A stretch of DNA of 36,528 nt, from positions 1 through 36,528 of IMG/VR virus record IMGVR_UViG_3300038550_000080. The stretch is one strand, 5' to 3'. The DNA comes from a virus. Positions 3,809-13,733 of the stretch are shown one piece after another. Both the position numbers and the translations under genes were made by a program. Under the pieces are notes generated by a model, which was given only the letters and a program-made list of their open reading frames with translations, was not told where the DNA came from and ran no database searches. Every line of letters begins with the position of its first letter. Position 1 is the stretch's first letter.

Positions 3809-4603
3809 TCAACTTCGGCTGCATTTGCGGGCCGTGCGGGTCGCTGCGCCATGCGTCGATAGCAAATCCACCAGCCAGAATTTATCGGCGCGGGATAAAT
3901 CGACCTGGGCAGTATGGTTCTGTAGGAACCATGCCGCGTCGGCGGGATGAATCGCCCACTCGACCGGCTGCCCCTGGGGACCGGTGCCGGCGGTTCGTGG
4001 TTTTGCGGGCAGCCAGCCGTTTTTGATCCAGCGCATCACGGTAGCCGGCGCAATATCCAATAGCTCGGCGAGACCCTTGGCGCTGTAGCGTTCGATATTT
4101 TCGCCACGAATGCGTTGACCAAGGCGGTTGAGTCGGCAAGCCAGCGCATTGCGGGTGCGAGGCCAGTTTTTCTGGCGAAACCGCTTTTCCAGCGTGTACA
4201 GGCCCAGGTAGGCGTGATCGCAGAGATAGTTATCTTCTTCCTCCGTCCAAATCCGCTCGGCAGCTTTCATCGTTACCACCCCCAGGTGCGCCGCCCGATT
4301 CCGCAACTGATGCAGCGGCACGTTGAGTTGTTGCGCCAGTTGCTCGGCGGTTTTGCCGCGCCGCCGATAAATATTCGGCCATTCCCGGCGAATGAGAGTG
4401 TCTTCCGCCTCCGTCCACTGATGGGTGTGCGGCAGAGTGTAGGTCGCACTTTCCGCGCGCTTCACGCCTAAATACCGCGCTTTCCTGCGGATCGAAACAG
4501 CGGACCTGCCGAGGTCAATGGCTAATTGATTCCCGCCCTCGGTGGGATAGCGAGCGCGAATTTGCGCTTCTTCATCGGGGGTGTAAATGCGGAGGAAGCT
4601 CAT
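3809..4603 (-). CDS. Phage DNA-binding protein with tandem Myb/SANT-like repeats and a C-terminal HTH
   Basis: A 264-residue protein, last gene of the leftward operon; its ATG overlaps the helicase TGA (ATGA). Three segments each begin with an aromatic or acidic stretch typical of SANT/Myb-like domains: YTPDEEAQIRARYP (about 7-20), WTEAEDTLIRREWP (about 62-75) and WTEEEDNYLCDH (about 119-130). Each is followed by a helix and a second basic helix such as RSAVSIRRKARYLG. A helix-turn-helix follows at about 172-200 (LAELLDIAPATVMRWIKNGW), resembling excisionase or MerR-type readers. It probably binds DNA in a repeated manner, perhaps as a late regulator or at the iteron origin; that role is inferred. 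The last 20 residues are basic and Ser/Thr-rich. Confidence 0.75.
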   Translation of the reverse strand: MSFLRIYTPDEEAQIRARYPTEGGNQLAIDLGRSAVSIRRKARYLGVKRAESATYTLPHTHQWTEAEDTLIRREWPNIYRRRGKTAEQLAQQLNVPLHQLRNRAAHLGVVTMKAAERIWTEEEDNYLCDHAYLGLYTLEKRFRQKNWPRTRNALACRLNRLGQRIRGENIERYSAKGLAELLDIAPATVMRWIKNGWLPAKPRTAGTGPQGQPVEWAIHPADAAWFLQNHTAQVDLSRADKFWLVDLLSTHGAATRTARKCSRS

Positions 4604-7327: not shown

Positions 7328-7927
7328 TCAGAACGTAATGTCATCGTCAAAGTCGCCCGCGGGTTCCAGCGCAGGGGCTGGCGCAGGGGCGGCGGGTTTC
7401 TTCCAGGGCGGAATTTTGCCTTCCGGCTTTGCCGCCGGCCTGGGCGGGGCGGCGGGGGACGGGGTGGGTGTGGCGCGGGCTTGGCGGGCCGGAGGGGGTA
7501 CGGCGGCTTGCGGGGCGCTGGTGGCTTGCGTTTCGCCCAGCCGCATCCATTTCTTGATCTGGTTCTTCTCAGCAAACTCGCCTTTCGCCGGGATATAGGC
7601 GACATGGATCAGGTGCGGGATGCCGTGCAGCGTCTCACTGTCTTTGATGCGCAGCATGCCGGTAGCTCGGCAAATCGCCGACAGTTCGCGTTGCGCAATC
7701 TCTTCCGCCTTGGAATTGGCGTTCTGGATGTTGAGGTTGTGCCAGACATAGCGGCCCTTGGCGGGACCATCAATCACTTGGAAAGTCAGCGCCAAATACT
7801 GTCCAGAGCCATTCTTTGTAGTGCGAAATTCGCTGTTCGTGATGATCACTGGATAGTCGCCAGCGGGCAGGGCGGAAAAGTCAGCAGGTTCTACGGTCGT
7901 TGCGTCAAAGTCGCCTAAGTAAGCCAT
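7328..7927 (-). CDS. DUF669-family single-stranded DNA-binding-like protein
   Basis: A 199-residue protein. The N-terminal 130 residues carry the DUF669 pattern: an acidic start, LPAGDYPVIITNSEFRTTKN, an ALTFQVIDGPAKGRYVWHNL segment and a following helix before IPHLIHVAYI. This family is common beside Sak4-like ATPases in phages and is thought to be the cognate single-strand-binding partner. The C-terminal third is a Pro/Ala linker ending in an acidic tip (DFDDDITF), like the protein-interaction tail of SSB. The ATG at 7927 has only a weak GAG upstream. Binding to single-stranded DNA is inferred from the family and the acidic tail. Confidence 0.8.
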   Translation of the reverse strand: MAYLGDFDATTVEPADFSALPAGDYPVIITNSEFRTTKNGSGQYLALTFQVIDGPAKGRYVWHNLNIQNANSKAEEIAQRELSAICRATGMLRIKDSETLHGIPHLIHVAYIPAKGEFAEKNQIKKWMRLGETQATSAPQAAVPPPARQARATPTPSPAAPPRPAAKPEGKIPPWKKPAAPAPAPALEPAGDFDDDITF

Positions 7928-7960
7928 GGTCGTGCTCTCGTTCGTTCGTTCAGGGGAAGA

Positions 7961-9094: not shown

Positions 9095-9565
9095 TCAAAC
9101 CAGAAAAAATGCCGTCAATACGGCGGTGATAATCAAAAACGCCGTCAGTGCCAGGGATTCGGGGATACGATCTACCCATGACAGGCTGTCGCGTTCATCA
9201 GATAGAGGCGGGCGCAAGTAGGTCGCCATTGGCGGGCGCGGGTCGGGAATGGGTTTGTCGATGGTCGTCGCCATCGGATGGGTGCCGGTACGGGGGCCCG
9301 TCAGCGGGCAGGGACCGGCCATATCGACGATGGCGCTCATCACGCGATCCTGCGCGGCGTCGATGGCGTCGAGGGCGTCGAGGGCGTCGTCCTGGCGCAG
9401 GATGTCGTTCGCCAAGCGGGGGATGTGCGGTCTGGATTCCCGCGCAATATCCCATCTATCGATCTCTCTGAGCGCGGCCTGGTGGCGGCGAATTAAATCT
9501 CGCTCGGCGCGGCCCTGGGCCTGGCGGGCGCTGACGCGGGTTTCAACGATCACAGGGTTTTTCAT
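9095..9565 (-). CDS. Unknown early protein with C-terminal membrane anchor
   Basis: A 156-residue protein. The first 80 residues are charged and probably helical, with a DALDALDAIDAAQDRV stretch suggesting a coiled coil. A Pro/Thr-rich linker follows, and residues about 136-156 are strongly hydrophobic (LALTAFLIITAVLTAFFLV), a likely tail anchor with the bulk in the cytoplasm. GGAGG precedes the ATG at 9565, which overlaps the stop of the preceding small gene (ATGA). I recognise no family. An early phage protein anchored at the inner membrane could act in host takeover or exclusion, but nothing here proves that. Confidence 0.6.
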   Translation of the reverse strand: MKNPVIVETRVSARQAQGRAERDLIRRHQAALREIDRWDIARESRPHIPRLANDILRQDDALDALDAIDAAQDRVMSAIVDMAGPCPLTGPRTGTHPMATTIDKPIPDPRPPMATYLRPPLSDERDSLSWVDRIPESLALTAFLIITAVLTAFFLV

Positions 9566-10154: not shown

Positions 10155-10367
10155 ATGAACAAAACGCCTCTTCAAAGAGCAATCCAGGCCATTGGATTGA
10201 CTCGTCTCAGTGAAGCAGTGGGGGTTCGCCCGCCGACGATCCATGTCTGGCTACGGAGCACAGGCCGCGTGCCTGCTCACCGGGTCATTGCCGTGGAACG
10301 GGCGACGGGTATCAGTCGCCACGAACTGCGTCCCGATATTTATCCCATCGAAGAGCGGGCCGCATGA
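10155..10367 (+). CDS. Cro/YdaS-like helix-turn-helix regulator
   Basis: A 70-residue protein. Residues about 5-40 match the YdaS/Cro pattern: LQRAIQAIGLTRLSEAVGV, a turn, then PPTIHVWLRSTGRVPAHRV, with the recognition helix in the second segment. The following VIAVERATGISRHELRPD is typical of YdaS-type phage Cro proteins. It sits beside TTAG-N7-CTAA operators and opposite the leftward operon, the usual place for a lambda-type switch. No Shine-Dalgarno is visible, so it may be translated from a leaderless message. I see no CI-type partner in the window, so it may be the only transcription switch present. Confidence 0.85.
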   Translation: MNKTPLQRAIQAIGLTRLSEAVGVRPPTIHVWLRSTGRVPAHRVIAVERATGISRHELRPDIYPIEERAA

Positions 10368-10758: not shown

Positions 10759-13058
10759 ACACCGCCCTCGTGATTCCCCATCCGCAGCCCGACCTGGCGC
10801 AAGCCGAACGGTTTTTAACGTGTTTGGATGAAGAGGCCGAGTTCTTCACCTTCCAGACCTTTGACGACCTCAAGCAACGCAAGGACCAGAGTCTCGCCAA
10901 GATTTTGCACGGGACGCTGGAGCAACACCATACGGATTTGGGCCGGCTGCAATGGCGGCGGGCGGGCGTCTATGTGACGGTCAACGCTACGGACGGAAAA
11001 GGCCGCAAGCTGGCGAACATGGTCAAACCGCGCGCCATCTGGTGCGAGTGGGACCGTTGCGGCGAAGCGTTGCCGCAATGGCCGCTGGACCCACAGGTGG
11101 TGGTTGAGTCCAGCCCCGGCAAGTTTCATTGCTACTGGTTCGCCTGGGACTTGGAATGGGCCGACTTTGATCTACTGATGCAGGTCATGGTCGCCTGGGG
11201 ATCAGACAAGAATGCCAAGGATCGCGCGCGGGTGTTGCGCTTGCCGGGGTTCTGGCACCAGAAAAGCGATCCCCCGTGGCAAGTGCGCATCGTCGTCGAG
11301 AACGAGCGGATGCCGTATTCGCGCGACGAGCTGCTGGCCGCTTTTCCAATCACCTCGCAGCCGCTGGAACTGCTGCCGCCGCCGCCGACGCCGGAAAAAG
11401 AGCATCACCACTGGATGAGCGTGGTCATGCGCCTGGCCGGCGAGCATGGCGCGCGAACCTGGTCCGATTTAAAAACCGGGCGGCACAACCAAATCATCAG
11501 CCTGGGCCACGAACTGGCTTCGCGCGGCGTTCCGGAATCCTATTTCGACGAGGCGTTACGCGCGTTCGAGCGTGCTATGCGCCCGACCAACGCCAATGGC
11601 GAAGTCGAGGGGATGAATTGGAACAACGAGCGCCAAGCGATCCTGCACGGCTACAAAACCGCAGCGGGGAAACCGACCGTCGCGCATGGCGCGCAAGTGG
11701 CTGAGGCGCTGTTGAAGAATCAGGAACAGCAATCCCGCCAAGCGGCGCAAGCCGTCCAGGACGAGCGTCCAGGCATCCCCCCGTTTCCGGCGGAACTGCT
11801 TGATTTGCCGCCGGGGCCCGTGCGGGATTATGTGGACTGGGTGAACGCGACCGGGCCGTGTGTGCAGCCGGTCTTGGCAATCGCCAATGCGCTGGCGCTG
11901 TGGGGCGTGATCATTGGCCGCACCGCGCAAACCGAAACCGGGCTGCGCACCAATCTCTACACGCTGGGGATCGCGCCGTCTGGAACGGGCAAGGACCACG
12001 CCCGCAAGCGCGCCAAGCAACTGCTTCACGATGCCGGATTGACGGAACGCCTGGGCGGCGAAAACCTCGCTTCCGATAGCGGCTTGCTGGACGCCCTACA
12101 CCGTTCGCCGGCTTGCCTGTTTCAGATCGACGAACTGGGCCGCATTTTCAAGACCATTACCAAATCCGACAAGGCCCACCTGGCCGGGATTACCACGGCG
12201 CTGTTGACGCTGTACTCCAGCGCCGATGGCCTGTTCCTCGGCAAAGAGTACGCGACCCAGGAACGCAAGGACATTGATCAGCCGTGCTGTGGGGTGTACG
12301 GCACCACGGTAGAAACGCACTTCTTCAAGGCGCTGACCCAGGACGAAGCGGAAGACGGCTTGCTGGCGCGGATTCTGATCTTTACCGGCGAGGCGGACCC
12401 CGACGAACAAGACGTGACGCCGATTCCGCCGCCCGCTTCATTGGTCGCCACCGTGCAAACGCTGGCGCGCCGGGCGATTAATGCGCAGCTACAAGGCAAC
12501 TTGGATAGTTTGCGCCCGAACCCATCCCGGTATATCTTTACTCCGGCAGCCCGGGCGCTGTTCGCCGAGTTGAAAGCCTGGATCAAGGCGCGGCGCGGCG
12601 ATCACCAGCGCCGGCAGATCAGCGCCATTTGGAATCGTTGCTGGGAAAACGCCGCCAAGGTCGCCTTGATCCTAGCTGCCAGTCGCCTGGACGGGCCGGA
12701 ACAGATTGATCAGCGGGATGCGCAGTATGGCATTGCCTTGACGCGCTGGTGCTGTGACGTGATGGTGGCCTGCATTGCTCAGTACGTGGGCGAAAACGAG
12801 GCGGAAACTACCAGTAAGCGCGTCGAACGGATCATTCGCCAGGCCGGCGCGGACGGGATCACCCTCAATCAGTTGTATGGCAAAACCCGGTTTCTGAAAA
12901 AGCGGGAACGCGCGGAAATGCTGGAAGACCTGGAAATCAGCCACACGATCTTTCGTCAATCCGAAAAAGCGCAAGGCCAGGGTGATCGTGCGGTGCTGCG
13001 GTTTACTCATGGCGCGTTCGCAGTAAACAGCAGTAAACAGCAAGTAAACAGCAAGTAA
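10755..13058 (+). CDS. Replication protein: RepB-type primase fused to DUF3987 helicase-like domain
   Basis: A 767-residue protein. Residues about 30-200 resemble RepB/AEP-type primases: acidic WCEWDR near 96-101, SSPGKFHCYW near 118-127 and DRARVLRLPGFWHQ near 155-170. Residues about 370-650 form a DUF3987 ATPase with Walker A APSGTGKD near 406-413, an acidic FQIDELGR strand (Walker B-like) and an ESxxxE-free sensor region. The C-terminus (about 690-760) looks like a winged-helix segment. The fusion would prime and unwind DNA at the phage origin. The origin lies immediately downstream: four iteron copies begin inside its last codons (SSKQQVNSK), so gene and origin evolve together. The ATG overlaps the previous TGA. 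Confidence 0.88.
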   Translation: MNTALVIPHPQPDLAQAERFLTCLDEEAEFFTFQTFDDLKQRKDQSLAKILHGTLEQHHTDLGRLQWRRAGVYVTVNATDGKGRKLANMVKPRAIWCEWDRCGEALPQWPLDPQVVVESSPGKFHCYWFAWDLEWADFDLLMQVMVAWGSDKNAKDRARVLRLPGFWHQKSDPPWQVRIVVENERMPYSRDELLAAFPITSQPLELLPPPPTPEKEHHHWMSVVMRLAGEHGARTWSDLKTGRHNQIISLGHELASRGVPESYFDEALRAFERAMRPTNANGEVEGMNWNNERQAILHGYKTAAGKPTVAHGAQVAEALLKNQEQQSRQAAQAVQDERPGIPPFPAELLDLPPGPVRDYVDWVNATGPCVQPVLAIANALALWGVIIGRTAQTETGLRTNLYTLGIAPSGTGKDHARKRAKQLLHDAGLTERLGGENLASDSGLLDALHRSPACLFQIDELGRIFKTITKSDKAHLAGITTALLTLYSSADGLFLGKEYATQERKDIDQPCCGVYGTTVETHFFKALTQDEAEDGLLARILIFTGEADPDEQDVTPIPPPASLVATVQTLARRAINAQLQGNLDSLRPNPSRYIFTPAARALFAELKAWIKARRGDHQRRQISAIWNRCWENAAKVALILAASRLDGPEQIDQRDAQYGIALTRWCCDVMVACIAQYVGENEAETTSKRVERIIRQAGADGITLNQLYGKTRFLKKRERAEMLEDLEISHTIFRQSEKAQGQGDRAVLRFTHGAFAVNSSKQQVNSK

Positions 13059-13279
13059 ACAGCAGAGCATCAAGAGCGAGAATCGCTAGGCAGCAAGCGG
13101 ATGATCGAAGTAAACAGAGTAAACAGCATACGCGATGCAGGGTTTACCGGAAGAAACCGGATAGGCGCTCTAATGCTGTTTACTCTGTTTACACTGTTTA
13201 CATATAATACATATATATATTATATACTTATATAATAAGTAAACAGCAAGTAAACAGCAAAAGACCCGAGTAAACAGCA
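13022..13279. other. Iteron-type replication origin (oriV-like)
   Basis: Twelve copies of an 11-bp iteron, consensus AGTAAACAGCA, lie here. Nine are perfect: forward at 13022, 13032, 13043, 13054, 13118, 13238, 13249 and 13269, and reverse at 13174-13184. Three variants are at 13109 (forward) and about 13183 and 13192 (reverse). Spacings of 9, 10, 11 and 20 bp put many copies on the same helix face. Between reverse and forward sets lies a 37-bp stretch (13202-13238) made only of A and T except two C, a likely melting site. This is the arrangement of plasmid and some phage origins. The stretch 13059-13286 holds no gene. Confidence 0.85.
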
Positions 13280-13286
13280 AACCGCA

Positions 13287-13733
13287 ATGGCTCACACGCT
13301 CAAGCTCACATCACCCACCGTGCTGGAATCCGACCTGCAACGGCATATCGTAGAGTATCTGCGGCATGAACAAGCCCGGGGCCGGGTCGGCTGGTTCGCC
13401 CGCATCAACGGCGGCAAAGCCCGACTCATGGGGGGTTTCTGGGTGAAGTTCTATCGACTGTGGATTCCGGCGGCACAGGAAGTGAGCGCGGGCTATAGCG
13501 ACTTACATGGCCTTTATGGGCCACGGAGCGGCTCTCCGGGGCTTTATTTCGCGTTAGAGGTTAAACAACCCGGGGAAAAGCCCACAGACGCTCAGACGGC
13601 GTTTTTGGCGGCTGTCCGTGAGTCCGGCGGCGTCGGGGCAGTGGTGCGCAGTATTGAAGACGTAAAGTCTTTGCTGTTCGGCGAGATCGATATTTTGAGA
13701 GATAGCCGTCCTGCAACGGATGACCTGAAATGA
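13287..13733 (+). CDS. VRR-NUC domain nuclease
   Basis: A 148-residue protein of the VRR-NUC family within the PD-(D/E)XK superfamily. Visible core residues are SDLHGL (Asp72), FALEVKQPG (Glu91, Lys93) and DAQ (Gln103), followed by the closing GGVGAVVRS strand. Such small phage proteins are thought to be structure-selective or Holliday-junction-type nucleases acting in replication intermediates. The ATG at 13287 has no clear Shine-Dalgarno and lies eight bases after the last iteron; a GTG at 13320 is an alternative start. Its position just after the origin fits a role in processing replication or recombination forks. Confidence 0.85.
   Translation: MAHTLKLTSPTVLESDLQRHIVEYLRHEQARGRVGWFARINGGKARLMGGFWVKFYRLWIPAAQEVSAGYSDLHGLYGPRSGSPGLYFALEVKQPGEKPTDAQTAFLAAVRESGGVGAVVRSIEDVKSLLFGEIDILRDSRPATDDLK

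Follow-up and report, generated by a model that had tools for sequence, protein, structure and literature searches.

The viral DNA analyzed here (36,528 nucleotides, all of IMG/VR record IMGVR_UViG_3300038550_000080; hereafter, the window) carries an array of short repeats across and behind the end of its primase gene. Judged from sequence, this array region is a candidate for, and very probably is, the phage's replication origin. We put the probability at roughly 0.8 that the origin is bound by the winged helix of the primase-helicase encoded just upstream, whose MCM-like ring would melt the A/T-rich core and whose primase would start synthesis. An iteron-type origin next to a primase fusion was the original prediction for this DNA, and it is strongly supported by arrays that occupy the same place in many relatives but use other iteron words.

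Anatomy of the array

The region at 13022-13279 holds 12 copies of the 8-bp core GTAAACAG (nine forward and three reverse), with two more in the rest of the 36.5-kb window. As originally predicted, nine of the cores lie within perfect iterons (AGTAAACAGCA, starting at 13022, 13032, 13043, 13054, 13118, 13238, 13249, and 13269 on the forward strand and at 13174 on the reverse strand), three belong to variants, and the phasing is near helical. The spacings are 10, 11, 11, and then 9 bp on the left, 9 and 9 bp in the reverse triplet, and 11 and 20 bp on the right. With up to two mismatches allowed, AGTAAACAGCA has 21 matches in the window compared to 4.2 expected, a number reached by none of 100 shuffled sequences. 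The array thus has the short direct repeats, the spacings of mostly 9 to 11 bp, and the adjoining initiator gene of iteron-type origins.

The last codons of the primase gene contain three iterons, and the stop codon (13056-13058) falls within a fourth, also as predicted. The nearly pure A/T stretch that had been noted beside the iterons, another trait of origins, is indeed the most A/T-rich 37-mer of the window, with 35 of its 37 bases being A or T. The proposed arrangement of reverse copies on one side of this core and forward copies on the other holds for the copies adjoining it (three reverse to the left and three forward to the right) but not for six forward copies farther left. Missed in the original prediction was a perfect 20-bp inverted repeat that is itself made of iterons, with arms at 13110-13129 and 13173-13192 and a 43-nt loop, which could be extruded as a hairpin or cruciform. 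The single-stranded DNA fold of the array region has a z score of −8.3 relative to shuffled sequences. We looked for a DnaA box at the array and found none; GC skew, a proposed indicator, has no turn at 13.1 kb in the window and is uninformative here. Coordinates are given in Table 1.

Table 1. Positions of the proposed origin and the adjoining features in the window
Feature	Position	Strand	Basis
Proposed initiator: RepB-type primase, DUF3987 (MCM-like AAA+) helicase, and C-terminal winged helix, 767 aa	10755..13058	+	Pfam, PHROG, AlphaFold
C-terminal winged helix (residues ~660-767), proposed origin-binding domain	12732..13055	+	AlphaFold, family profile, iteron tracking
Left outer iteron block, in and across the primase gene end	13022..13064	+	Four AGTAAACAGCA (13022, 13032, 13043, 13054)
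Forward iteron pair, left arm of inverted repeat	13109..13128	+	13109 variant, 13118 perfect
20-bp inverted repeat, 43-nt loop	13110..13192	.	Perfect arms; fold z = −8.3
Reverse iteron triplet, right arm of inverted repeat	13173..13201	-	9-bp spacing; core starts 13176, 13185, 13194
A/T-rich core, proposed DNA-unwinding element	13202..13238	.	35/37 A+T
Right iteron block	13238..13279	+	Three AGTAAACAGCA (13238, 13249, 13269)
VRR-NUC nuclease gene, directly after the array	13287..13733	+	Pfam VRR_NUC

The primase-helicase and its gene neighborhood

The 767-aa protein matches RepB_primase (E = 3.5e-9) and DUF3987 (E = 3.4e-17) in Pfam and a DNA primase family in PHROGs. Its AlphaFold model has a pLDDT of >90 for most of residues ~340 to 760. 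In a PDB fold search with the full model, the AAA+ and winged-helix part matched MCM helicases (E values down to 5e-6), with low TM-scores owing to poor prediction of much of the N-terminal half; as modeled, the DUF3987 helicase part seems to resemble MCM. The last ~100 residues form a predicted winged helix (mean pLDDT, 88.6; order, helix-helix-helix-strand-strand), of which the final ~12 residues are encoded by iterons and are poorly ordered in the model. A family profile of this domain matches the winged helix of the RNA polymerase III subunit RPC6 (E = 3.2e-7).

The window protein therefore has the PrimQH-like order of RepB_primase, DUF3987, and winged helix. Primase-DUF3987-winged-helix proteins are described by Kazlauskas et al. 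2018 in work on PrimQH family archaeo-eukaryotic primases, where DUF3987 is a predicted helicase and the winged helix is suggested to recognize origins (PMC5862659). The passages on these proteins name no origin for DUF3987 proteins (PMC5862659), for which the arrays reported here are candidate sites. A search of the open-access literature (subscription papers lay outside it) found no published origin for DUF3987 proteins and no paper containing both "DUF3987" and "iteron."

The primase operon begins with a YdaS/Cro-like regulator gene (10155-10367) and is divergent from a recombination operon encoding a DEAD-type helicase, a Cas4-like exonuclease, a DUF669 single-strand-binding protein, a Sak4-like annealing ATPase, and a protein with helix-turn-helix modules. 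Such modules are found by Pfam and PHROG in the Myb-type protein encoded at 3809-4603. Next on the plus strand are the terminase, portal, head protein, and protease genes. By Pfam or record annotation, a nuclease of the VRR-NUC type also comes after the array in three relatives (L050, L052, and L269); as an obligate partner it was rejected, being present in only 2 of 40 records. In agreement with the original prediction, no classical Rep is visible: the Pfam and PHROGs scan of the replication-region proteins revealed no dedicated plasmid Rep of the RepA/Rep_3 type.

Arrays behind the primase stop codon in relatives

No close relatives emerged when viral and genome collections were scanned with the window primase as a single-protein query, and the relatives returned by tblastn against phage and plasmid records were distant ones. 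A scan of 369 genomes of one bacterial class gave just two at the cutoff. The relatives were gathered mainly by alignment-based scans, which yielded 225 viral loci; 219 loci were testable. Four of the tblastn relatives have an array on both strands after the primase stop codon, each with its own word: Moraxella phage Mcat11 (CGCAGACA), Spartinivicinus plasmid pC (ATGTGAAAA), Rhizobium phage RHph_TM3_3_14B (GGAATTG), and a plasmid from Deinococcus encoding a protein that resembles the window protein in the primase part only. Further words in relatives include TTGAAAGA, GAGGAATT, and AACCTGTCA.

To score arrays, we compared the 400 bp beginning 60 bp before the primase stop codon with every other 400-bp segment of the same locus, using the commonest 9-mer (one mismatch, both strands, nonoverlapping). 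The segment behind the stop codon beat all others in 75 of the 219 testable loci. After protein clustering, the positives were 33 of 74 at 90% identity, 17 of 36 at 70%, and 12 of 26 at 50%, with about 3.7, 1.8, and 1.3 expected, respectively. Iterons at the same place in related phages, to which the original prediction had looked for confirmation, are thus present in 12 of 26 lineages, but not in one large clade (L140-L219), discussed below. High repeat numbers also occur elsewhere: in L224, L227, and L231, control segments away from the primase have 15 to 22 copies of a 9-mer within 400 bp.

What is conserved is place, not sequence. The arrays keep their layout (both strands, an A/T core, and a long inverted repeat) and differ in their word. 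The A/T peak lies between the iterons in 35 of 42 nonredundant array loci, and in 37 of 42 nonredundant origins, the window's included, the strongest inverted repeat exceeds those of all control segments. Grouped by similarity, the iteron words form at least about 11 groups, a conservative count because one group chained together. Array-bearing relatives differ in their N-terminal primase module (RepB_primase, Prim-Pol, or NrS-1 type), while the helicase, the winged helix, and the array stay together. The gene behind the array also varies (VRR-NUC, RuvC-like by inspection, and others).

This variation bears on two readings that link the array to its downstream genes. A packaging (pac) or terminase-binding site would fit the terminase small subunit gene 1.6 kb downstream, and in four viral contigs (L011, L012, L014, and L018) GTAAACAG arrays lie just upstream of terminase-small-subunit-like genes. 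In relatives, however, the array accompanies the primase gene while the next gene changes, and pac sites, unlike origins, are not expected to have an A/T-rich core, making this reading highly improbable. We give even less credence to an operator or other array controlling transcription of the operon that follows the primase gene. A promoter-like site (13179-13208) does overlap the array, and a double role is common at origins; but the match is at chance level (one found versus 0.6 expected), and arrays alike in size, dyad symmetry, A/T core, and location behind the primase are found again in lineages with other downstream genes.

The original prediction further proposed a plasmid-like origin and a phage-plasmid state, which our results do not support. 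One of them, Spartinivicinus plasmid pC, is a circular 82-kb record in which primase, array, and VRR-NUC follow one another as in the window, and the window, which may be incomplete, has no detected tyrosine integrase, serine recombinase, or Mu-type transposase (the Mu-type search being one without a positive control). Nevertheless, ParA was found neither in the window nor in 39 relatives, a serine recombinase of integrase size is present in 10 of 15 relatives checked, and other iteron-bearing relatives carry a tyrosine integrase. The array therefore goes with integrating temperate phages, and an origin for stable extrachromosomal upkeep of a phage-plasmid seems very unlikely.

In the L140-L219 clade, the winged helix is present with no adjacent array (75 testable loci; none within about 5 kb), so the presence of a winged helix alone does not point to an adjacent origin, and the domain could instead have a structural, MCM-like role. 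A wider search of three records of this clade found an array in one, ~9 kb from the primase. Within the clade, L289 has nine ATGACAAAA-like copies at about 16.1 to 16.5 kb. The idea that a phage DNA polymerase distinguishes clades that have arrays from those that lack them was rejected, as PolA was absent from all 40 records.

Iteron words track the C-terminal winged helix

Two binders had been proposed, the primase fusion and the Myb-type protein, and our results favor the former. In array-bearing relatives, the winged helix makes up the last ~100 residues of the protein. Winged-helix identity correlated with iteron similarity when the helicase domain was controlled for, both across 42 loci (partial Mantel r = 0.43; P = 0.0002) and across 15 diverse loci (r = 0.25; P = 0.008), with shared ancestry not fully removed by these tests. 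Conversely, the helicase domain showed no link with the iteron in the 15 diverse loci when the winged helix was controlled for (−0.02). Among pairs with helicase identities of 0.60 to 0.75, which are nonindependent, winged-helix identity was 0.60 for pairs with the same iteron versus 0.39 for pairs with different iterons. A switch is seen between L230 and L236, which have the same scaffold and helicases that are 65% identical, but winged helices that are only 31% identical and different words. As the winged helix and the array adjoin in the DNA, shared recombination could yield part of the correlation. These comparisons, together with the structure model, suggest that the iteron binder is likely the primase's own C-terminal winged helix.

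An unlikely alternative is that the region is an origin but that a protein other than the primase-helicase recognizes its iterons and then recruits the primase-helicase, much as lambda O recruits DnaB. Candidates would be the Myb-type protein, some other protein of the phage, or an initiator of the host. The helix-turn-helix modules of the Myb-type protein would suit such a role, and the winged helix is also present where no adjacent array was found. The tracking of the winged helix by the iteron word and the absence of a DnaA box argue otherwise. Homologues of the Myb-type protein are absent from 39 other records, most of which are from iteron-bearing lineages, and its proposed role as the iteron binder is therefore unsupported.

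Comparison with known replication systems

Closer parallels than phage-plasmids appear to be the origins of phage P4 and of the staphylococcal pathogenicity islands (SaPIs). By layout, the window protein is like SaPI Rep and Cch2, helicases with a C-terminal DNA-binding domain and a short-repeat origin directly downstream. For SaPI Rep and SCCmec Cch2 of staphylococcal islands, the C-terminal domain has been shown experimentally to recognize repeats just downstream of their own genes, and SaPI Rep is reported to bind as two hexamers (PMC7581432). In the window, the repeats have the same position directly downstream of the helicase gene, and their reading by the C-terminal domain is backed statistically. 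Unlike in the SaPI and SCCmec systems, where the primase is separate, the window has a DUF3987 MCM-like motor fused to a RepB-type primase, in a tailed phage.

P4 alpha, like the window protein, combines a primase, a helicase, and a C-terminal winged helix. Its helicase is of the SF3 type. Its primase is of the Toprim type, and its winged helix has been shown experimentally to bind the origin repeats (PMC4234260). Both origins have iterons on both strands around A/T-rich DNA, the P4 crr site lies directly downstream of the alpha gene, and the P4 iteron GGTGAACA(G) is one base apart from GTAAACAG in the shared core. P4 differs from the window's array in needing two separate sites, ori and crr. 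Homology between the winged helix and the P4 alpha C-terminal domain was rejected (hhalign probability, 0.2). One exact AGTAAACAGCA occurs in the P4 ori (L044, about 9285 to 9300) beside annotated type 1 repeats (GGTGAACA).

The crenarchaeal plasmid pRN1 (ORF904) and Bordetella phage BIP-1 share with the window an archaeo-eukaryotic-type primase, a helicase, and a winged helix in one protein, as well as an origin directly downstream of the gene (PMC4234260). The pRN1 stem-loop (21-nt stem and 58-nt loop) is similar in size to that of the window (20-bp stem and 43-nt loop) (PMC4234260). However, pRN1 lacks iterons and its helicase is of the SF3 type, while the window's stem is itself built of iterons.

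Proposed mechanism and implications

By analogy with these systems, the primase-helicase would bind the iterons through its own C-terminal winged helix, and its MCM-like AAA+ helicase would assemble as a ring, probably as two rings, beside the A/T core. The protein would then melt the core, the fused primase would prime both strands, and a host polymerase would copy the genome, presumably in both directions. With a winged-helix binder and an MCM-like motor, the protein would thus resemble P4 alpha or SaPI Rep in how it works but differ from them in its primase and its motor.

An initiator-helicase with its origin directly downstream is known; unusual here are the motor, the primase, and the address, which changes from one lineage to another. 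We tentatively propose, at slightly less than even odds, that the primase, MCM-like helicase, winged helix, and array directly behind the gene form a self-contained origin cassette, carried by a widespread group of temperate phages, and that its address is repeatedly rewritten, iterons and winged helix changing in concert while the scaffold is kept, perhaps as an escape from interference by coresident phages or satellites using the same initiator. DUF3987 proteins are common in phages, and for many phages at once a testable origin can be proposed by the rule of looking behind the primase stop codon. Winged helices matched with their iteron words make up a natural data set on how initiator helicases choose DNA, and the system provides a simple model for how an MCM-like helicase can start on a short viral origin with no separate initiator.

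A change of spelling can also be followed between close relatives. In the first 130 bp after the primase stop codon of L241 and L243, whose helicase domains are 92% identical, the scaffold and A/T core are kept and the iteron spelling of the whole array has shifted together, an apparent case of concerted evolution.

Similarly spelled arrays in other loci

Because close relatives of the window were not found, GTAAACAG itself was not seen to be kept behind another DUF3987 gene. A search by GTAAACAG triplet matched 15 viral and 20 genome stretches, and DUF3987 was absent from all 13 viral records checked among the matches; a common spelling is therefore no guide to relatedness. Arrays of GTAAACAG on both strands, together with A/T-rich DNA, occur in viral contigs L011, L012, L014, L017, L018, and L022, which have no detectable DUF3987 gene, and in several of these contigs the array is just upstream of terminase-small-subunit-like and VRR-NUC-like genes. 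They are possibly unrelated origins with a similar word. In L009, a tandem 11-bp array (7916-7945) lies ~130 bp downstream of a gene whose product has a RecA-like AAA domain and matches the CHC2 zinc finger weakly; this could be another type of primase with its repeats at the same place.
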